This document shows, one piece after another, positions 5,088 through 37,252 of a DNA stretch of 54,518 bases. The position numbers and the translations under genes were made by a program. The notes beneath the pieces are model-generated. The model was not told the origin of the DNA. It saw only the letters and a program-made list of their open reading frames with translations, and did no database searches. Every line of letters starts with the position of its first letter. The stretch's first letter is position 1. Origin of the DNA: Chloroflexota bacterium. Its GTDB lineage: Bacteria > Chloroflexota > Limnocylindria > P2-11E. The stretch lies in NCBI GenBank assembly GCA_005881885.1, contig VBDX01000147.1, positions 1 to 54,518 of the forward strand, in the 5' to 3' direction.

Positions 5088-5155
5088 CAGCGAGAGAGTA
5101 CGGGCAGGAGATGCGCGGCTGCGGGTGGCACGGGGGAGCGGGGGTCGCGCGCGAT

Positions 5156-5176
5156 GCGCGGGTGCCCCGGGGCCCC
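5156..5176. repeat. GC-rich 21-mer shared with the ABC-F gene
   Basis: GCGCGGGTGCCCCGGGG plus four bases here matches the reverse complement of 13896-13916 at 20 of 21 positions. The copy here lies in the 205-bp non-coding gap between the MFS gene and the CvpA-CAP gene; the other lies in the linker of the ABC-F gene. It is related in style to the palindromes listed elsewhere. Confidence 0.5.
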
Positions 5177-5292
5177 ATCCGAGATGCGCTCAAGGTACGT
5201 CGCGACGAATGAGGATGGGGAGGGTGCGCGAGCGCGCGACGCCCCGACCCCGGGACAGGACCCGCAGCCGCGAGCCGCGAGCCGCGCGCTCT

Positions 5293-12983: not shown

Positions 12984-13572
12984 CCGGGCGGAGTTCCTTC
13001 CAGGCCTCGCGCACCCGCTCGCGCGTTCGCTCGCGGTCGCCGTCATTCACGATGACGGTATCCGCGGCCGCCCGGAAGCGTTCCTCGCTGAGCTGATTCG
13101 AAAGGCGGAGCTCCGCCTCGCGCGGACGCATACCGCGCGCCGCGAGGCGTTCGATCATCGTTTCACGCGGAGCCACGACGACCCACACGCGGTCGCAAAC
13201 CTTCCGGAGATCGCCTTCGAGGAGCTTGATCGCTTCCACGACCAGCACCGCGTCGTCAGGCAGCATCGCTCTCGCCTCGAGGACGCGCGCGATCACGCGC
13301 GGGTGGAGGATTCGCTCGAGACGCTGCAGCTTCATCGGGTCGCCGAAGACCTCGGCCGCGAGCTTCGCTCGGTCGATCTCCTTCGCTTCGTCGAGGATCT
13401 TCGTTCCGAACTGCTGGACAATCGCGCTGTAGCCGACCGTCCCGCGGAGCTGCTCGTCGTGCACCAGGGCATCCGCGTCGAGCACCTTCGCGCCGAGCTC
13501 CCGGAGCATCGCGCCGACCGTCGACTTTCCCGCGCCCATCGGTCCAGTGAGGCCGACGACGAACACCGTCAC
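12973..13572 (-). CDS. coaE: Dephospho-CoA kinase
   Basis: CoaE phosphorylates the 3'-hydroxyl of dephospho-CoA, the last step of coenzyme A synthesis. The product is 199 residues from a GTG at 13572 whose bases overlap the TGA of the ABC-F gene (GTGA). The P-loop is GLTGPMGAGKSTVG near the N-terminus. Other family features are VLDADALVH, the LHPRVIARV motif, LVVEAIKLLE and a C-terminal VIVND. Length and motifs are normal. Linkage polA-mutM-coaE is also found in Bacillus-type genomes, which supports the operon. Its end overlaps the convergent cpaB gene. Confidence 0.95.
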   Translation of the reverse strand: MTVFVVGLTGPMGAGKSTVGAMLRELGAKVLDADALVHDEQLRGTVGYSAIVQQFGTKILDEAKEIDRAKLAAEVFGDPMKLQRLERILHPRVIARVLEARAMLPDDAVLVVEAIKLLEGDLRKVCDRVWVVVAPRETMIERLAARGMRPREAELRLSNQLSEERFRAAADTVIVNDGDRERTRERVREAWKELRPATA

Positions 13573-15566
13573 TCGCTCTTCTCGCTCCCTTGCGCCCACT
13601 CGTCGTAGAGCGTCCGCAGATCGCGTTCGAGCGACGCGTATTCTTCGCTGACCCGCCGCGTCTCCATGTAATTCCCGCTCTGCGCGATCTGGCTCACTTT
13701 CTCTTGAAGCTGACGCAACTGAAGCTCCATGGCCTCGATGCGGGCCTCCAGCGCCCGCATCCCCTCGATGCGTCGAACTGCCGATGCCCTGTTGCTTCCT
13801 CGCCCTGTGGCGGCGGGGGTCCTGTCCCGGCGCCGGGATCGCTCGCTCCGCGCACCCTCCCCAGTACTCCGCGACCGCTTCGCAGTCGCGGAACTGGGTC
13901 CCCGGGGCACCCGCGCGTCGCGAGCGACTCCCTGCGCCGTGCCACCCCCGGCGCTCGGGTCGTCCAGCTTTGGCATCGGAAGCTCGACACCCGCAGAGCG
14001 CAGGCGTTGGAGGCCGGACCAGTTGCCCTCGAAGCGCTTCAGCACGCCAGCCTCGATCGGCCAGATCTCAGTCGCGAGCTTGTCGATGAAGTAGCGATCG
14101 TGGCTGACGAAGAGGATTGCGCCCTCGAATCCGCTCAGGACTGCCTCCAGCTGCTCACGAGCGACAAGATCGAGATGGTTCGTCGGTTCGTCCAGCACAA
14201 GAAGATTGGCCTGGCGTGCGGCAAGACGTGCGAGCGCGAGACGAGACCGCTCCCCACCCGACAGCACCCCCACGCTCGTGAATACGTCCTCGCCGCGGAA
14301 GAGAAAGCGCGCGAGATGATCACGAGCTTCGGCGTCACTCATTCCGCTCGCCACCTTCATCGCATCGAGCACGGTGTCGTCGCCGCCTAGCTCCAGCTGC
14401 GCCTGCGCGAGGAAACCCACGCGCGCGGTCGGCGCGGATTGAACGTAACCTTCGAGCGCGGTGAGGTCGCCGACGAGCGTGCGCACCAACGTGGTCTTCC
14501 CTGCGCCATTCGGCCCGACGACCGCGATGCGGGCATCCCGGGCGATGCGCAGCATCCCGGTGCGGACGAGCGGCTCGCCGTAACCGACCGCGAGCGGGGT
14601 GGTCTGCACCACCGTGTCACCGGCCAGATGCGCGGCCTCGAGGCGCCAGCTGTGCTGCTGCGCGCGCTCCGGAGCCTCGATGCGCTCCACGCGCGCGAGC
14701 TTCTTCGCGCGGCCACGCGCTTCTTTCGAACGCTGTCCCGCGCCGTAGCGGCGAATGAACTCCTCCGTCCGCGCGATGTCCTCGGCCTGGCGCGACGCGG
14801 CCTTCTCGGTCGCCGCCTCGCGGTCGGCGCGTTGCCGGGCATAGGAGGAATAGCCGCCGCGGTACTCGACAACGCTGTTGCGCTCGAATGAAAGTGTTCG
14901 ACTCGTGACGCGATCGAGGAACCACCGGTCGTGGGAGGAGACCAAGATGGTTTCGTCCTGCTCGATCAGGAATCGCTCCAGCCATTCGAGGGCCGCGAGA
15001 TCAAGATGATTCGTCGGCTCGTCGAGCAGCAAGAGATCGGGATCTTCGAGCAGGAGCCGCGCGAGACCGAGCCGCGTGCGCTCCCCACCTGAGAGCGTGC
15101 GCACTTCCCTGTCGCGCATCCCGCCGAGCCCCAGACCGGCGAGGACTCGGCCAACGGTCGCGTCGAAGTCGTACCCGCCCGCGTGATCGAAGCGGTGTTG
15201 CACGTCGGCGTACCGCTCGAGGAGATCCTGGTCACCGGTTGCCAGCCGTGGCTCCAATCCGCGCATTTCGGCTTCGAGCTCGCGGAGGTGCGCCGCCGCG
15301 CCGCGCGCATGCTCCTCGACGGTCCCGCTGGCGTCGGCGAGCACCTCCTGCTCGAGGAAGCCGATGCGCGTGCCGCGGGCGAGCGCGACATTCCCCGCAT
15401 CCGCCGTGTCGAGACCCGCCGCGATCCGCAGGAGCGTCGTCTTGCCGACGCCGTTTGGGCCAACGAGACCAACGCGGTCACCGTGCGCGAGGCGGAACGA
15501 AATGTCGCTGAAGACCAGCCGCTCGCCGAACCGTTTCGCAACTGCTTGGACCGAGAGGACGCTCAT
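13569..15566 (-). CDS. ABC-F family ATPase (Uup/YdiF-like ribosome factor)
   Basis: ABC-F proteins have two ABC ATPase domains, no membrane segments, and act on the ribosome. From ATG 15566 (MSVLSVQAVAKRFGE) the product has 665 residues. Domain 1 has GPNGVGKTT and LSGGERTRL with LLLLDEPTNHLDL; domain 2 has GPNGAGKTT and LSGGERSRL with LLVLDEPTNHLDL. The inter-domain linker is rich in Arg/Glu (RRYGAGQRSKEARGRAKK). A C-terminal extension of about 130 residues has a basic low-complexity stretch (about 530-600) and ends in a coiled coil (LEARIEAMELQLRQLQEKV). The basic stretch coincides with GC-rich repeat-like DNA. The start overlaps the preceding stop as ATGA. Whether it serves translation or antibiotic protection is not clear. 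Confidence 0.93.
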   Translation of the reverse strand: MSVLSVQAVAKRFGERLVFSDISFRLAHGDRVGLVGPNGVGKTTLLRIAAGLDTADAGNVALARGTRIGFLEQEVLADASGTVEEHARGAAAHLRELEAEMRGLEPRLATGDQDLLERYADVQHRFDHAGGYDFDATVGRVLAGLGLGGMRDREVRTLSGGERTRLGLARLLLEDPDLLLLDEPTNHLDLAALEWLERFLIEQDETILVSSHDRWFLDRVTSRTLSFERNSVVEYRGGYSSYARQRADREAATEKAASRQAEDIARTEEFIRRYGAGQRSKEARGRAKKLARVERIEAPERAQQHSWRLEAAHLAGDTVVQTTPLAVGYGEPLVRTGMLRIARDARIAVVGPNGAGKTTLVRTLVGDLTALEGYVQSAPTARVGFLAQAQLELGGDDTVLDAMKVASGMSDAEARDHLARFLFRGEDVFTSVGVLSGGERSRLALARLAARQANLLVLDEPTNHLDLVAREQLEAVLSGFEGAILFVSHDRYFIDKLATEIWPIEAGVLKRFEGNWSGLQRLRSAGVELPMPKLDDPSAGGGTAQGVARDARVPRGPSSATAKRSRSTGEGARSERSRRRDRTPAATGRGSNRASAVRRIEGMRALEARIEAMELQLRQLQEKVSQIAQSGNYMETRRVSEEYASLERDLRTLYDEWAQGSEKSE
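13896..13916. repeat. GC-rich 21-mer inside the ABC-F linker
   Basis: The reverse complement of this segment matches 5156-5176 at 20 of 21 bases. It encodes part of the basic, low-complexity linker (VARDARVPRGP) of the ABC-F protein, so repeat DNA seems to have been taken into the coding sequence. Confidence 0.45.
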
Positions 15567-16033
15567 GGCATCCGGGGAAGCCAACGCGGCACGCTCTCGC
15601 GGTACGACCGGTATTCGTCACCGAACGTCCGCTCGAGCGACGGCTCTTCCCACAGGATCACGAAGAGATGCCAGATCACCGCGAGGGCGGCAAGGTAACC
15701 CAGGAGCGACAGCGAGCCGAAAAGGATCGCCTCTCCGAGTACGACCGAGCCGACACCGAGATACATCGGATTCCGCACGAGGCGATATGGCCCGCTCGCG
15801 ACGAAGCGGCGTGGCGCGTCCCATGGCGCGAGTGTCCCGCGACCACGCGTCGCGAACTCGAAAACGCACCATGTGAAGATCACCAGCCCGAACCCGAGCG
15901 GCAGGAGCCCGACCCAGGCAGCACCGTCCGGTCCCGACGCTGGGCCGAGGATGAGCCACGGGATGAGCACCGCGGCAACGCCGGGGAGGACGATGACCGA
16001 GACAAGCGAACGGATCACGATCTGAAGGCTCAC
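15563..16033 (-). CDS. Isoprenylcysteine carboxyl methyltransferase-like (ICMT/PEMT) membrane protein
   Basis: This 156-residue protein has about four hydrophobic segments. It carries the family signature SGPYRLVRNPMYLG at about 92-105, the cofactor-binding GPYRxxRNP-x-Y motif of ICMT/PEMT-type methyltransferases, and a C-terminal EEPSLERTFGDEYRSY motif. It probably transfers a methyl group from S-adenosylmethionine to a membrane-associated substrate, which is unknown. The GTG start at 16033 is chosen because it follows the mutM stop by 10 bp and opens directly into the first hydrophobic segment. The TGA overlaps the ATG of the ABC-F gene (ATGA). Confidence 0.8.
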   Translation of the reverse strand: MSLQIVIRSLVSVIVLPGVAAVLIPWLILGPASGPDGAAWVGLLPLGFGLVIFTWCVFEFATRGRGTLAPWDAPRRFVASGPYRLVRNPMYLGVGSVVLGEAILFGSLSLLGYLAALAVIWHLFVILWEEPSLERTFGDEYRSYRESVPRWLPRMP

Positions 16034-16043
16034 GCGAACCGAC

Positions 16044-16907
16044 CTAACGGCGGGGCGACCGCTGGCAGCGCGGGCAATGGAACGTGCCGCGGCCGCCCAC
16101 CACGGTGCGAACGATCGCGCGGCCACACCTCGGGCAGGGCTCTCCGGCGCGAGCGTAGACCTGGAACTCGCGCTGCATCCGGCCTTCGTTGCCGCGAGCA
16201 TCGACGTAGTCGCGACGCGACGCGCCGCCAAGACGGATGCCCTTCCGGAGCGCCCAGCGGATCGCCTCATGCAAACGCGCGACCTCGGCGGCGCGCAGCG
16301 ACCCCGCCTTTCGGAGCGGATGGATGCGCGCACGCCATAGCGCCTCGATCGCGTAGATGTTCCCGATGCCGGCGATCGCGCGCTGATCCAGCAGCAGGAC
16401 TTTGATCGCCACGCGCGGCCGGCGCCGGAGGAGCGCACGAAACCAGGCCACGGTGAAGCCGCGGGCGAGCGGTTCTTGACCCAGGGATGAGTGCAGCGGC
16501 ACCCGGGGCCCGGGGGGCGAAGCGCCCCGACTCTCCAACGTCGCTGCGTCGACGACCGCCATGCGCCCGAACTTCCGCGTGTCGGAGAATCGGAGCGCGG
16601 TCCCGTCTTCGAAGAGGATCTGACCGCGCACGTAGCGCTCATCGACATCGTCGACGCCGTAGAGGAGCTTGCCGGTCATCCGGAGCGAGACAACGAGCGC
16701 CTCACCGCCGTCCAAGTCGAAAACGACGAACTTCCCGCGACGTCGCACGCTGCTGATCCGCCGGCCCCGAAGCCGCGCCGCTACGACCTCGGCCGGCTCG
16801 GGCTCGGTCAGACGGACCCAGCGGGACTCGAAGTCGCTGATCGTCCGGTCCACGACGAGCTCCCTGAGCTGGCGCGCGATCGTTTCGACCTCGGGTAGCT
16901 CAGGCAC
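16044..16907 (-). CDS. mutM: Formamidopyrimidine-DNA glycosylase (Fpg)
   Basis: MutM removes oxidised purines such as 8-oxoguanine and nicks the strand. The GTG at 16907 gives VPELPEVETIAR; after Met removal, Pro is the catalytic nucleophile and the next Glu completes the site. RRGKF carries the conserved lysine, and the C-terminal zinc finger is CPRCGRAIVR ... FHCPRCQ. The product is 287 residues, longer than the usual ~270, because of an in-frame segment near 136-150 (SRGASPPGPRVP) that corresponds to a GC-rich palindrome. The start lies inside the end of polA (8-nt overlap), so translation is coupled. Confidence 0.96.
   Translation of the reverse strand: MPELPEVETIARQLRELVVDRTISDFESRWVRLTEPEPAEVVAARLRGRRISSVRRRGKFVVFDLDGGEALVVSLRMTGKLLYGVDDVDERYVRGQILFEDGTALRFSDTRKFGRMAVVDAATLESRGASPPGPRVPLHSSLGQEPLARGFTVAWFRALLRRRPRVAIKVLLLDQRAIAGIGNIYAIEALWRARIHPLRKAGSLRAAEVARLHEAIRWALRKGIRLGGASRRDYVDARGNEGRMQREFQVYARAGEPCPRCGRAIVRTVVGGRGTFHCPRCQRSPRR
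16503..16532. repeat. GC-rich palindrome in frame inside mutM, family copy b
   Basis: GGGGCG-AAG-CGCCCC hairpin flanked by GGGGCCC, matching the family core. On the coding strand it translates as SRGASPPGPR, an insertion in MutM between the DTRKFGRM region and the next conserved block. Confidence 0.6.
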
Positions 16908-19632
16908 TGGCGGCGGCCACGACCTCCAGCCGTTCCATCTCATCCCAGTTCGGTCCAACGCGGACGTCGACGACGAGCGGCACCTCCAGCTGATACGCGG
17001 CGCTCATTTCATCGCATAGAAGTCGGGCCATGCGCTCGACCTCGAGTCGCGGGACTTCCGCGACGAGCTCGTCGTGCACCTGCAGCAGGACGCGCGCGTG
17101 CAGATCGCTGTCGTGGAGCGCTCGGTGCACCCGCGACATGGCGATCTTCATGATGTCCGCGGCGGTCCCCTGGATGGGCATGTTGATCGCCATGCGTTCG
17201 GCGGCGTTGCGCACGGCGTTCACCGGACTCGTCATGTCGGGGATGTAGCGCCGCCTGCCGAGCAATGTCTCGACGTAGCCCTGCTCGATACAGAAGGCCT
17301 TCGTCTCGAGGATGTACCGGCGGACCTGCGCGTAGCGCTTGAAGTACTCGTCGATGAAGCGCTGGGCTTCCTCGCGGGGCATCTGCATCCGCCACGCGAG
17401 GCCGAAGTCGCTCATTCCGTAGATGATCCCGAAGTTGAGCATCTTGGCGACGTCGCGCTGCTGACGCGTGACGTCCTTCTCCTCGACGCCGAAGCCAGCG
17501 GCCGCGGTGCGGCGATGGACATCGGCACCGGAGCGGAACGCATCGAGCAGCGCGGGATCCTGCGACACGTGCGCGAGCACACGCAGCTCGATCTGCGAGT
17601 AGTCCGCGGCCACGAGCACCATGTCCGGCGAGCCGGCGACGAACGCGTGGCGGATCCGGCGTCCGAGCGGCGTGCGGATCGGGATGTTCTGCAAGTTCGG
17701 CCCGCGGCTCGAGAGCCGTCCCGTAGCGGCGACGGTCTGGTCGAAGGTCGTGTGGACGCGCCGTGTCTCCGGATCGACCAGTCCTCCGAGCCCCTCGGCG
17801 TACGTCGAGCGGAGCTTTTCGATCTCGCGGTACTCGAGGATCTTCTCGATCACCGGATGCGCGCCGCGAAGCTCCTCGAGCACCGTCGCGTCGGTGGAAA
17901 AACCCGTCCCGGTGCGGCGACCGCGGGGCAGCTTGAGCTCTTCGAACAGGAGCGACTGCAGCTGCTTGGGCGAGTTGATGCCGAAATCGTGGCCCACGGC
18001 GTCGTAGGCCTCGCGCTCGATTCGCGCGACCTCACGCGCGAACTCCTCCCCCAGCGAGCGCAGGTACGAGAGGTCCACGGCGATCCCCGCTTCCTCCATT
18101 TCGACGAGCACGTCGACGAGAGGCAGCTCGACGTCGCGGTAGAGCCGCTCGAGGCCGAGGCGCTCGAGCTCAACAGCGAATTGTTCGCCAAGACGCGCCG
18201 CCGCCACCGCGCCCGCGCCGGCACGGGCCACCCGCTCGTCGAGCGTGGGTGTGCGCAGCGGATCTTTGCGGTCCGGCACCGGCAGGATGGGGACCTCCAG
18301 CTTCAACCGTTCGGCGGAAAGATCCTCAAGCGCGTGGTATCGGCGGCTGGCGTTGACGAGGTAGCTCGCGATCATCGTGTCCATCGCGAGTCCGGCCAGA
18401 TCAGCGCCGGCGCGCCGTAGAGCGCGCCGTGCGGTCTTCGCATCGTGTGCGGTCTTCGGGATCGTGTCGTCGAGGAGCACGGCGACGATGGGCGCGGGAA
18501 CGCCGTCGGGAGTCGGCAGGTACCACGCGCGATCGCCGAGAGCGAAACCGATCCCGACGAGCGCCGGATGGCGCCCGGAGATGTCGACGTCGGCGTGGAG
18601 GGCGAGAGCGCCGGCCGCCCGCACCGCGCGCGCGACGGCGTCGGCATCTGCGACGAGGGCGGTGTCCACCGGCGGCGCGACGGTGGGCGCAGCTTCGAGG
18701 CCCAGCTGAAGCTGCCCACCGCGGGCCACGGCAGGCCGCTGGCTCGGCGCTGGCGCGGCGAGGTTCTGGTCCGCCGGCGGCAGTCGCGGCACGAGGCTGC
18801 GGAACTCGAGGTCGCGGAACAGCTCGAGAACCGCGGCACGGTCATACGTTGTGCGTCTGGTGCGCTCGAGCTCGAGCGTCACAGGCAGCTCGGTCACGAT
18901 CGTCGCAAGCTCCCGACTCTTGAAGACCTGGTCCTTGTTTGCCGCCAGCGCTTCACGCAGGCGCGGCGTGTACCCGCTGAGATCGGCGTATACGCCTTCG
19001 AGGTTCGTGTGCTCGCCGATTAGCTTCGCCGCGGTCTTGTCGCCCACCCCTGGGACGCCGGGGATGTTGTCGGTCGTGTCACCCTTGAGCGCTTTGAAGT
19101 CGACCATCTGGTCGGGTCGCAGCCCATACCGCTGACGGATCATCTCCTCGTCGTAGATCACGGTGTTCTGGAAGCCTTGTCGCGTGGTCATCAGCTTCAC
19201 GCGTGGCGACACCAGCTGCAGAGGATCGAGATCGCCGGAGACGATGATGGTCTCGAGGCCTTTGGCTTCGGCCTGCCGCGCAAGCGCCCCGATGACATCG
19301 TCGGCTTCGTAGCCCGGCAGCGAGTACATGGGTACGCCGAATTTCTCGAGGAGCTGCTTTACCCGCTCGAACTGCGGCCGCAGCTCGTCGGGCATCGGTC
19401 GGCGCGTGGCCTTATACGTGGGCTCGCGGTCGTGCCGGAAGGTCGGAACCGGCAGATCGAACGCCGCGGCGATGTGCTGCGGCGTGGTCTGCTCGAGCGA
19501 CTTCAGAAGGATCGAAGCGAAACCGAAGGTGGCGTTCGCGAGCTCGCCCTTCGTCGTCGTGAGCGGCGGCATGGCGAAGAACGCCCGGTAGATGAGGCTG
19601 TTCGAGTCGAGGAGGACAAGACGTTCGGTCAC
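16900..19632 (-). CDS. polA: DNA polymerase I
   Basis: Pol I fills repair gaps and removes RNA primers. The 910-residue product starts with the 5'-nuclease domain (LVLLDSNSLIYRAFFA, then PGYEADDVIGAL and DNIPGVPGVGDKTA). The middle 3'-5' exonuclease-like domain is degenerate: the usual D-T-E of motif I reads ALHADVDISG, so proofreading is probably lost, as in Taq. Polymerase motifs are intact: RLSSRGPNLQNIPI, motif A DYSQIELRVLAH, motif B RDVAKMLNFGIIYGMS and motif C LLQVHDELV. The GTG start at 19632 follows the anti-sigma gene by 16 bp. mutM begins inside its 3' end. Confidence 0.97.
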   Translation of the reverse strand: MTERLVLLDSNSLIYRAFFAMPPLTTTKGELANATFGFASILLKSLEQTTPQHIAAAFDLPVPTFRHDREPTYKATRRPMPDELRPQFERVKQLLEKFGVPMYSLPGYEADDVIGALARQAEAKGLETIIVSGDLDPLQLVSPRVKLMTTRQGFQNTVIYDEEMIRQRYGLRPDQMVDFKALKGDTTDNIPGVPGVGDKTAAKLIGEHTNLEGVYADLSGYTPRLREALAANKDQVFKSRELATIVTELPVTLELERTRRTTYDRAAVLELFRDLEFRSLVPRLPPADQNLAAPAPSQRPAVARGGQLQLGLEAAPTVAPPVDTALVADADAVARAVRAAGALALHADVDISGRHPALVGIGFALGDRAWYLPTPDGVPAPIVAVLLDDTIPKTAHDAKTARRALRRAGADLAGLAMDTMIASYLVNASRRYHALEDLSAERLKLEVPILPVPDRKDPLRTPTLDERVARAGAGAVAAARLGEQFAVELERLGLERLYRDVELPLVDVLVEMEEAGIAVDLSYLRSLGEEFAREVARIEREAYDAVGHDFGINSPKQLQSLLFEELKLPRGRRTGTGFSTDATVLEELRGAHPVIEKILEYREIEKLRSTYAEGLGGLVDPETRRVHTTFDQTVAATGRLSSRGPNLQNIPIRTPLGRRIRHAFVAGSPDMVLVAADYSQIELRVLAHVSQDPALLDAFRSGADVHRRTAAAGFGVEEKDVTRQQRDVAKMLNFGIIYGMSDFGLAWRMQMPREEAQRFIDEYFKRYAQVRRYILETKAFCIEQGYVETLLGRRRYIPDMTSPVNAVRNAAERMAINMPIQGTAADIMKIAMSRVHRALHDSDLHARVLLQVHDELVAEVPRLEVERMARLLCDEMSAAYQLEVPLVVDVRVGPNWDEMERLEVVAAASA

Positions 19633-30034: not shown

Positions 30035-31762
30035 CTAGCTGTTAGTGCGCCAAGCCTCCGTGAGTCGCGATGCGGTCTCGTCCACCAACCCACGCACCAT
30101 CACGATCGTTCTGAAACCGGGCTCGTCGGCCATCGGGCCCACCACCAGCGCGCCGACGACGTCCCCGGAGACGGAGATCGGGATGATCGTCGACCGCCCG
30201 CCCTGCACGAGACGCTCGAGCGTCGCGGCCCCGTCGGCATCCCGCAGCGGGTGGACAAGCTCGTCGAGGGTGGGCGATGTCACGATGCGCCCCTCGCGGC
30301 ATGCGCGCGCGATCGCGTTGTACCGGTCGGCGAGCTCGATCGTGAACCTGCCCGCCGAGATCCCGAGCGCGTAGTCGAATTCACGCGCCGCGGCCGACGT
30401 GCTGATGAGCTCACCGCGAAGCACGCCGGCGGCCGGGTCCACGCCCACCATGAAGGTGGTCGGAAGGCCGATCTCGGCGCACTTCGCGAGGAGGTCCTTG
30501 AGGATCTCGTCGGTCGTTGGGGCCTCCGGCTCTGCGGGAGTGGAGGACGGAGCCGCGGCGGCCGGCGGGAGGACGACGGCCGCCGCGGACTCCAGAGGGG
30601 AGAGACTTGGTTGGAAGCGGGTGGCACGCCGAACAGCGGCGAGCCGATCGCTCGAGACCTCGATGACGCGGAGGACGAGCCGAGTGGCGTGGTCGGAGAA
30701 CCCGCTCTCGCCAAACACCTGCAGCGTCGTGACGCCGAAGACCTCGTCGGCAGCGACGAGCGGGTACTGAAGGACCGATATCTTGCGCGCCTCGACACCT
30801 TCCGGCCCGCGCATGCCGATCTCGCGGATGTACGAATGCCAGCGCCGATCGTGCCGTGCCGCATAGCAGTCCGGACCATCATCGACGGCCTGCCGGCCCA
30901 TCTCGGCGGACTCGGGATCGGCCCCCACCACCTTGTACCGGTAGGCGACTTCGCGTCGCACGGCGTTGAAGAGCGTCACGGAAAAGCCGTCGACCCCCGC
31001 GATCGCGGTGACCGCGTCGCGCAGGACCCGACCGATCGATCGTGCATCGGTGAGGTCGTCGAGTGCGCGCGCGACCTCTTCGACCACCTGGCGGTCGCGC
31101 TCTTCCTGCTCATCTTTCGGATCAAGGACAGCTTCGGGGGGCAGAGCCCCCCGGCCACCGAAGTCCGGTTGGGATTCCGGCTCGGGCTCGGGCTCGTTGG
31201 GCACCACCACGAGACGCCGCGGCTGCTCCGGTTGGGCGGTCGTCGCGAACGTCGCGAGCGAATCGCTTCCCACCGCCGCGGCGATGAGCTCGCATGAAAG
31301 ATCGAGCGCCTCGCGAGCCTGCGCCGTGACCACTTCGCGCGTGATGAGCGTGCCGAGGAGCACGCCGACCGTGCGCTCGCGAGCGACGAGGCGCGAGATG
31401 AGGAGTCGCGGCGGTATCCCCACCCACTCGGCTTGGTAGGGCACCGGCCAGTCGAGAAGGATGGCGCGGTTCGCCGGGAGTGTGTCGTCGGGAAGCTGCA
31501 GATTCAGCAGCCGACGGTCGTGCAGCCAGGGCATACGGCCTACCTGTGCTTCGACCGAATCGCCGGCCGCGGGCTGCCGGACCACCGCCGCCCCGATGAG
31601 ATAGGGGACGCTGTTCAAAAGAATGCGAAGCGTCGCCTCGATCGGCGGCGTCATCGGGACGATGGACAACGGAGGAAGGTCGAGCCGAGGCGATTCGGCC
31701 GCCTGCTCCATCGGAGCCGCGGTCGGGGTCGCCTGCATCGACACTCGCCGTGCGCCTCCCAT
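30035..31762 (-). CDS. Multi-GAF-domain protein without output domain
   Basis: From ATG 31762, behind a strong ribosome site (GGGAGGAGA), the product has 575 residues; the frame is open further upstream but without such a site. Three GAF-like blocks are seen: about 35-190 (ILLNSVPYLIGAAVV), about 225-395 (ALDDLTDARSIGRVLRDAV, FSVTLFNAVRREVAYRYKVVG, SVLQYPLVAADEVFGVTTLQV) and about 430-570 (TTFMVGVDPAAGVLRGELI, RSTIIPISVSGDVVGALVVG). Linkers are acidic or Pro-rich; one carries an in-frame palindrome (GGRGALPPEAV). No kinase, cyclase or DNA-binding domain is present, so it may be a scaffold or ligand sensor for a separate partner. Confidence 0.8.
   Translation of the reverse strand: MGGARRVSMQATPTAAPMEQAAESPRLDLPPLSIVPMTPPIEATLRILLNSVPYLIGAAVVRQPAAGDSVEAQVGRMPWLHDRRLLNLQLPDDTLPANRAILLDWPVPYQAEWVGIPPRLLISRLVARERTVGVLLGTLITREVVTAQAREALDLSCELIAAAVGSDSLATFATTAQPEQPRRLVVVPNEPEPEPESQPDFGGRGALPPEAVLDPKDEQEERDRQVVEEVARALDDLTDARSIGRVLRDAVTAIAGVDGFSVTLFNAVRREVAYRYKVVGADPESAEMGRQAVDDGPDCYAARHDRRWHSYIREIGMRGPEGVEARKISVLQYPLVAADEVFGVTTLQVFGESGFSDHATRLVLRVIEVSSDRLAAVRRATRFQPSLSPLESAAAVVLPPAAAAPSSTPAEPEAPTTDEILKDLLAKCAEIGLPTTFMVGVDPAAGVLRGELISTSAAAREFDYALGISAGRFTIELADRYNAIARACREGRIVTSPTLDELVHPLRDADGAATLERLVQGGRSTIIPISVSGDVVGALVVGPMADEPGFRTIVMVRGLVDETASRLTEAWRTNS
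31131..31155. repeat. GC-rich palindrome in the GAF gene, family copy c
   Basis: GGGGGGC-AGA-GCCCCCC is a perfect 7-bp stem. On the coding strand it reads GGRGALPPEA, between GAF-like blocks 1 and 2. Confidence 0.65.
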
Positions 31763-31888
31763 GTCTCCTCCCGTTGTTGCTGATCGATTTGTAGGACGGC
31801 GCGCGCTCTCTCCCATCACCCGACGGGACTATCTCGACCGCGGGGGAGTACTGACGTACCGGGCGGGGGATGTCGGGTTTGACGGCGC

Positions 31889-36388: not shown

Positions 36389-37252
36389 CTACGCGACCAG
36401 CGTTCGAACGCGACGCTGGGCGGCGCGGACCGCGCCGCGCACGAACGGCCGCTCGTCCGTGGCAAGAAACTCGAGGATGTCGGGGGCGCGTAGAGCGAGG
36501 CGCGCGCCGCTCGCGGCCGAGAACGTCATCGCGACGTTCCAGCGCACGTTCTCGTCCTCATCCTTCATCCACGTCCGGAGCCGTGCGAGCGTCGCATCGG
36601 GATACGAGCGCACGAACTGATCGCCGAGCGCGAACGGCCCGAGGTTCTTGCGCACGTACTCCTCATGGTCGCGAAGGGCGGGCTCGATCAGCCCGAGCAG
36701 CGGCTCGGCCCACTCCTGACGCCGCGTCCGTGCCGCGTACTTGGCAGCCACCACCACCGCGCGCCTGAGGCGGCTGTCCGGCCCGCTCACCCACTCGCGG
36801 GCCAGAGGAAGCGTGTCCTCCCACGACTCGACGAGGAGGCGGCCCAGGAGCGCTGCGGCGGTCTCGCGCACCCCCCAGTCGTCGTCGCGCGCAAGGCGGT
36901 AGGCCATTCGCATGAGGTCGCGCGAATGACCCTGAATGAGCGGCGCGGCGATCAGCGCGGCGAGCTCCTTATCGACGCGCCGGGGATGGGCGATGAGGCG
37001 CTCAGCCCAGTTCAGCCGGACGATCGGCGCCGGTCCGATCCGGTCGATGATCTCGACCGCGCGGTCGAAGTTGTCCTTGCGGACCCAGCCGTTGATGCCG
37101 GACTTGCGAAGGGCGTCGGACGCTCCCAGCGGATCTCCCACTGCGAGAGAACGCTCGAACCGCTCCACCCACACCTCGTCCGGCGGCGGGTTCTCGGGGG
37201 CAGGGGCAGGGGTCCGTGGGCGCGAAGCGCTCGCCCCTCGGATCTGGGTCAC
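36389..37252 (-). CDS. HEAT-repeat protein, AlkD/DNA alkylation repair-like
   Basis: From GTG 37252, which overlaps the aminotransferase TGA (GTGA), the product has 287 residues. After a Pro-rich N-terminus (RGASASRPRTPAPAPE) it is all helical, with HEAT-type repeats such as DDDWGVRETAAALLGRLL, DSRLRRAVVVAAKYAAR, EYVRKNLGPFALG and DENVRWNVAMTFSAASG. The WGVRE and YVRKNLGPF blocks resemble DNA alkylation repair proteins (AlkC/AlkD group), which hold alkylated bases without flipping them. The similarity is suggestive, not proof; a general scaffold is the alternative. The N-terminal tail comes from a GC-rich repeat. Confidence 0.65.
   Translation of the reverse strand: MTQIRGASASRPRTPAPAPENPPPDEVWVERFERSLAVGDPLGASDALRKSGINGWVRKDNFDRAVEIIDRIGPAPIVRLNWAERLIAHPRRVDKELAALIAAPLIQGHSRDLMRMAYRLARDDDWGVRETAAALLGRLLVESWEDTLPLAREWVSGPDSRLRRAVVVAAKYAARTRRQEWAEPLLGLIEPALRDHEEYVRKNLGPFALGDQFVRSYPDATLARLRTWMKDEDENVRWNVAMTFSAASGARLALRAPDILEFLATDERPFVRGAVRAAQRRVRTLVA
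37209..37241. repeat. GC-rich palindrome at the start of the HEAT gene, family copy e
   Basis: GGGGTCCGTGGGCGCG-AAGCGC-TCGCCCC forms a GGGCG/CGCCC-type hairpin. On the coding strand it gives RGASASRPRTP directly after the start. A CAGGGGCAGGGG run beside it is shared with the gatC-gatA insertion. Confidence 0.6.

Follow-up and report, generated by a model that had tools for sequence, protein, structure and literature searches.

A small palindromic element dispersed at gene junctions and within reading frames, mutM among them, in one Chloroflexota genus

The window, by which the whole analysed stretch of 54,518 nucleotides is meant, is the entire contig C162 of the MAG G000 (3.36 Mb, 67% GC). 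A sequence-only reading of this DNA had reported a palindrome at 16503–16532 inside mutM and in-frame copies of the same element in two further genes, which it called a GAF gene and a HEAT gene. The name GAF stays unconfirmed because no Pfam family was found in that gene at E 1e-5. The features concerned are the following:

16044..16904, minus strand: mutM (formamidopyrimidine-DNA glycosylase), host gene; Pfam PF01149, PF06831 and PF06827; PDB MutM 1l1t, E 7e-58
16505..16530, minus strand: element copy in mutM, TCGGGGCGCTTCGCCCCCCGGGCCCC, slightly decayed, read in frame as RGASPPGP
16900..19632, minus strand: polA, in the window without a copy; its linker at about 18600–18700 is filled in G004 and G001
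30035..31819, minus strand: so-called GAF gene, host gene
31134..31159, plus strand: element copy in the so-called GAF gene, TCGGGGGGCAGAGCCCCCCGGCCACC, against the gene direction, in-frame GGRGALPPEA
37223..37243, minus strand: claimed HEAT-gene copy, at chance level and not an element copy

Alignment of the first genome matches yielded the consensus TCGGGGGGC-TCY-GCCCCCCGGCCCCC for a dispersed element which forms a repeat family. With the 26-mer TCGGGGGGCTCTGCCCCCCGGCCCCC and up to 3 mismatches 45 matches were obtained in G000, and the reversed 26-mer as a control gave none in the same genome at the same tolerance. The element has a GC-only stem of 8–10 bp (8 bp, extended by up to 2), which is closed by a loop of 3 nt and followed by a tail rich in C. 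Folding of the consensus gave a stem of 10 bp and the loop of 3 nt at −22 kcal/mol (z −2.6). Among 117 copies with at most 2 mismatches the core is almost invariant except for the loop, the consensus tail reads GCCCCCG, and upstream of the core A is preferred at position −5 (0.54), C at −3 (0.51) and G at −1 (0.62). As a T run is absent after the hairpin, the element does not have the form of an intrinsic terminator. Compensatory changes maintain the pairing in the stem: 22 double Watson-Crick changes, spread over four pairs, were counted in 147 copies, as compared to a mean of 4.0 and a maximum of 11 with shuffled columns, and 17 of the 22 are due to a single T-A subfamily (17 copies, 13 of them from G004). 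This set of 147 comes from loci chosen around matches rather than from whole genomes (41 copies from G000, 55 from G001, 50 from G004 and one from G007), with a tolerance of four mismatches outside the loop. ATGA occurred 28 times upstream and twice downstream in 188 upstream/downstream stretches. This enrichment arises in part because many copies follow start codons, and a fixed upstream tag was therefore rejected. A search of the window against Rfam gave no match.

The palindrome pointed out in mutM proved to be a genuine copy of this element, with mismatches at 2 of the 23 positions outside the loop, and no match with up to 2 mismatches was obtained in 20 dinucleotide shuffles of the window. 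Read on the minus strand from 16530 to 16505 it encodes S-RGASPPGP-R in frame, and the RGASPPGP segment corresponds to about residues 126–134 of MutM, where an AF2 model shows the peptide as a coil linking a strand to the helix that follows (loop pLDDT about 64, a modest confidence). The copy in the so-called GAF gene, with 1 of 23 mismatches outside the loop, was likewise found to be the element and to encode the reported peptide GRGALPPEA, but its orientation had been taken to be the same as in mutM, and the tail, which opposes the gene, shows the opposite; the loop alone reads the other way. At the orthologous place this copy is missing in all three relatives compared (G003, G008 and G007). 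For the HEAT gene the claim was not borne out: the peptide IRGASASRP is present, but the underlying DNA has 9 of 23 mismatches, a number found at 246 places of the window, and the 20 dinucleotide shuffles reach 5–7 on their own. This place is at chance level in both and is therefore not regarded as a copy.

Comparison of mutM within the genus was possible for nine genomes with a complete gene. The element is present in three of them in the identical loop and frame, with a single copy in G000, an intact one in G004 and two in G001. Between fixed flanks the loop comprises 33 residues in G000, 35 in G004 and 45 in G001, as compared to 32 in all six element-free congeners, which corresponds to net changes of +1, +3 and, with the two copies, +13. 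The view that the palindrome adds a peptide to MutM is thus correct in so far as about nine residues of the window protein are derived from the element, but the net gain is a single residue. A simple addition was therefore rejected, and as the loop grew by only one residue, native loop residues were replaced. In a scan of MutM loops (37 rows in total, drawn from overlapping sets of 21 family loci and 16 named loci, with 3 rows unreadable across the loop) the peptide was seen only together with the DNA element. An RGAxP peptide in the absence of the palindrome, which the sequence-only reading had named as counter-evidence, did not occur in the 16 further MutM loops of the family that were read, and the MutM of PDB entry 1l1t is also without the peptide. 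An import of the G004 copy from G000 by recombination was considered and rejected, the flanks being similar to G003/G005 up to the element. In MutM the peptide would be a tolerated stretch of linker and not a functional motif.

The expected absence of the segment from congeners that lack the element was found for further genes, the segment being carried in two of eight polA genes and, out of four GAF-gene loci, in the window only. The polA linker holds a double copy in G004 and an inverted copy at another place of the linker in G001, and none in the six others compared. In G001, CarB has 11 additional residues compared to E. coli CarB (PDB 1bxr), located in a tight beta-hairpin before VYVLEVNPRAS, and IleRS has 11 additional residues compared to PDB 8c8w. 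Further in-frame hosts are DnaG in G000 and G004, and an FAA hydrolase, an S1-domain protein and MutS2 in G004. The view of a repeated palindrome which is inserted in frame into unrelated coding genes, and which occupies loops, linkers or termini there as Rickettsia palindromic elements do, is supported, with polA, carB, ileS and dnaG as hosts besides mutM.

Copies are mostly located at gene junctions and gene ends. With reading frames called by a simple custom codon-usage script, 146 copies (the single G007 copy was omitted) were assigned to 52 intergenic positions (36%), 61 positions within 15 codons of a gene end (42%) and 33 deeper positions (23%), while these zones make up 8.0%, 9.5% (both gene ends) and 82.5% of the sequence, respectively. 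Of the 52 intergenic copies, 40 are no more than 30 nt away from a gene end. The terminal copies are divided into 36 near the C-terminus and 25 near the N-terminus. In-gene copies are part of an open reading frame that is coding on either side of them; a strict two-sided coding test was passed by 26 of the 147 copies. All six frames of the element are open and all six are used, if unevenly (chi-square 43.5): the 94 in-gene copies read SGGSAPRPP (37), GRGAEPPD (20), RGALPPGPR (13), GAGGQSPP (12), GGLCPPAP (6) and RGPGGRAPR (6). Because the stem is palindromic, RGAxP is given by two frames, one per orientation, which explains the motif that the sequence-only reading had found to be shared; the special status given there to an RGA-x-P peptide is not supported in view of the other frames.

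Among 28 genomes of the family the 26-mer was found in five, all belonging to the genus of the window (G000 with 45, G001 with 73, G004 with 42, G007 with 19 and G002 with 10 matches), and with up to 3 mismatches it was not detected in the six congeners G003, G005, G006, G009, G008 and G010. These genomes are incomplete MAGs, the genus set being 71–92% complete. When 400 genomes sampled from the phylum were searched with up to 2 mismatches, three carried the element, all from this genus, of which four members had been sampled. The hairpin core GGGGGGCNNNGCCCCCC, with up to 1 mismatch, occurs 63 times in G000, 146 times in G001, 13 times in G002, 65 times in G004 and 51 times in G007, and is absent from the six element-free congeners at that tolerance. 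In other genera it was also found, 27 times in G018 and with 1–11 occurrences each in ten more genomes, so the element family is wider than the genus and patchy. The copies read in G018 and G016 are built in a related way, with the spacer that precedes the C tract being longer, and the hairpins of other genera (L213–L237, G016, G018) read CATGACGAGCTACC-GGGGGGCTCCGCCCCCC-GAGGA-CCCCCCG. In a translation made by eye, several of the G016 and G018 hairpins would supply the start codon, reading MTSYRGAPPPEDPP. Pairing of loop and tail in the G018 variant was looked at and dropped, as it was inconsistent on inspection by eye.

At orthologous sites the element is present in some genomes and absent in others, and different species hold copies at the same sites, some of them inverted. 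The 5′ junction of ddl is filled in 4 of 9 genomes, the 3′ junction of the epimerase gene in 4 of 11 (with a partial row for G002), where G000 and G004 have one orientation and G001 and G007 the opposite one, and the nusA-ylxR junction in 3 of 11, there as an inverted pair. The gene names murB, nusA and ylxR are taken from sequence reading, and those of ddl and the epimerase are supported by Pfam. At nusA-ylxR (L207, L211, L201) the pair takes the place of a ~20-nt spacer and makes up a long inverted repeat, and a few bases outside the core also pair, these being different bases in each species. When sites with orthologous flanks on both sides were counted as shared, G000 and G004 had 12 in common (of 41 G000 copies), all in the same orientation, G000 and G001 had 10 with 4 inverted, and G001 and G004 had 13 with 4 inverted. 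Shared copies in the same orientation look inherited or exchanged, and inverted ones look independent. The sharing as such is compatible both with recurrent insertion and with ancient presence followed by loss.

A tree of polA and mutM does not support monophyly of the element-bearing species, since G004 groups with element-free species in a clade with a support of 100 and weak support inside (57–79). Single-gene trees keep this G004 clade with the exception of ddl, where G004 goes with G001. As the support within the clade is weak and the single-gene trees disagree, G004 is not claimed to be the sister of G005. The ddl gene of G004 (L188, G004:C165) groups with G001 at a support of 100, and the other G004 genes tested group with G003/G005/G006/G009. 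This placement may be due to gene exchange or to a mixed bin, and as ddl behaves unlike the other genes, G004 is possibly mixed.

From all these data the segment in mutM very likely belongs, as a single copy, to a dispersed palindromic element of small size and REP/RPE-like kind which is spreading through one Chloroflexota genus and has relatives in other genera of the same bacterial family. Copies would be moved in hairpin form by an enzyme provided in trans, and most insertions into genes would be purged by selection, so that the survivors would be those in frame, in loops, linkers and first or last codons. Insertion may often go along with a loss of some native residues, by which the local length would be little changed, and it is possible that some copies are used as RNA structures. 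The Y1_Tnp domain of RAYT-type transposases (PF01797) was found in none of the 11 genus genomes, which are 71–92% complete, and in 5 of 14 in the control rings; mobility driven by a RAYT was rejected on this ground. A target-site duplication could not be read, as the nearest genomes are only about 80–90% identical. More tentatively, and rather doubtfully, a hairpin without the known REP transposase may repeatedly enter the same places across species in either orientation, namely junctions preceded by TGA or ATGA motifs that resemble stop or start codons and the loops of mutM and polA, with some congeners staying entirely free of it. If so, REP-like elements would have a new insertion system which chooses its targets, and insertion into coding sequence would be one of its regular outcomes.

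Proline/glycine-rich linkers are common, and in a genome of 67% GC such linkers could by chance or convergence form palindromes and peptides of Gly, Ala, Pro and Arg. The HEAT place with its 9 mismatches is exactly such a case. For the mutM and GAF-gene copies, however, an origin by chance is refuted by the genome-wide count of 45 against none for the reversed control, and together with the shuffles and the sharp presence or absence between congeners this makes chance hardly credible as a general explanation. Nearly as improbable is a conserved RGA-x-P protein motif with a function of its own. It could draw on the frame RGAxPPGP shared by the mutM copies of three species and on the uneven use of frames, but the latter fits selection against some readings, the six frames yield quite different peptides, the host proteins are unrelated, and the 16 family MutM loops do without the peptide.

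Two further explanations concern the history and the use of the copies. The family might be old, inserted in the ancestor of the genus and lost wholesale in the group of G003, G005, G006 and G009 and in that of G008 and G010, with little or no recent movement. The uniform orientation of all 12 sites shared by G000 and G004 agrees with this, and since the gene trees leave G004 unfixed within its clade, two losses could suffice; but neither a remnant nor a hairpin core was left in the six element-free congeners at the tolerances used, the mutM loops of element-free genus members have a uniform length, and with 4 inverted pairs in each of the two comparisons with G001 descent alone is insufficient, so that great age is a possible but rather improbable account. 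That the hairpin is selected at gene ends for RNA stability, termination or protein binding, with the in-gene copies as by-products, is unlikely. The concentration at gene ends, the compensatory changes, the stable fold and the inverted pair at nusA-ylxR would all suit such a role, but the element is dispensable in six congeners at every site compared, the copies deep in genes number 33 of 146, either orientation is found with no T-tract behind, and avoidance of gene damage alone would push copies to gene ends.

As a spreading REP/RPE-like element it is best read as a new family outside the GTAG and CGTC families, from which it is set apart by their descriptions. It agrees with the broad picture of a REP-like sequence as a dispersed palindrome of 20–40 nt that occurs in numerous copies, for the most part at gene junctions, and with that of RPEs as palindromic repeats in frame inside unrelated protein genes. 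In the survey by Di Nocera et al. (2013, PMC3733652) REPs are described inside genes, many of these for replication and repair, and with termini supplying stop codons. CGTC REPs, to which RPE-4 and RPE-6 are counted, are given there as lacking a known transposase and as having a stem of 8–9 bp with A-T pairs at positions one and two, a loop of 4–5 nt and a CCA-like tail; their families are listed from five phyla, Chloroflexi not included. The present element resembles CGTC REPs in stem length, in a short preferred segment at one end, in having a tail, in dimers and in gene-end and intragenic copies (DNA polymerase I and tRNA synthetases included). It may resemble them also in lacking a dedicated transposase, the search for Y1_Tnp having given 0 of 11 genomes. 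It differs in the absence of A-T pairs from the first two stem positions, in its 3-nt loop and in its GCCCCC tail. As CGTC was found at 24 of 147 copies and its allowed variants TGTC/CCTC at 12 of 147, and as the GTAG tag, the A-T start of the stem and the loop length do not fit either, the element is placed outside the CGTC and GTAG REPs. With GTAG REPs and REPtrons it has in common a hairpin of REP size, many copies and a location at gene ends; GTAG was detected within 12 nt upstream of 3 of 147 copies, and the RAYT that belongs to a REPtron was not found. GTAG-23 of T. roseum forms clustered blocks according to the same survey, in contrast to the dispersed copies here.

The likeness to RPEs, especially the short RPE-4 and RPE-6, lies in a small palindrome that sits in frame at tolerated places of many unrelated genes and is patchy between species of one genus. 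Here the stem is GC-only with 8–10 bp, the loop has 3 nt, the host is a Chloroflexota lineage of 67% GC and all six frames are used, and with such a stem homology to an RPE family is unlikely. In the review PMC10969869 the RPEs that were reported first are given a much larger size of about 150 bp. The parallels met with in the literature come from Rickettsia and from mitochondria. For this lineage the literature searches yielded nothing on such elements apart from PMC3733652.

A GC-rich soil Chloroflexota lineage thus has a Rickettsia-like habit which reaches core enzymes such as CarB, IleRS, DnaG and PolA. Palindromes inserted in frame are familiar above all from Rickettsia, in which genome decay is frequently involved. 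The all-or-none distribution among congeners and the shared, sometimes inverted junctions offer a natural comparison for the movement of REPs without a transposase, a question to which the 2013 survey gave no answer for the CGTC REPs (PMC3733652).

Other repeats were observed nearby. A second repeat of the dispersed type, about 150 nt long and containing inverted repeats, lies at 5123–5271 and 13810–13947 of the window in mutually inverted orientation. The two copies are 77% identical, one intergenic and the other in a called ORF (13569–15584), and related stretches occur in loci of several congeners, with no Rfam match. A third dispersed repeat of about 85–95 nt, starting near GACGAGCGACGAGCGG, has several copies elsewhere (L141 of G004 among them) and is also found at the 5′ junction of ddl in G000 (L181/L029) and G006 (L186), so that, together with the palindromic element, this one junction has received two unrelated repeats.
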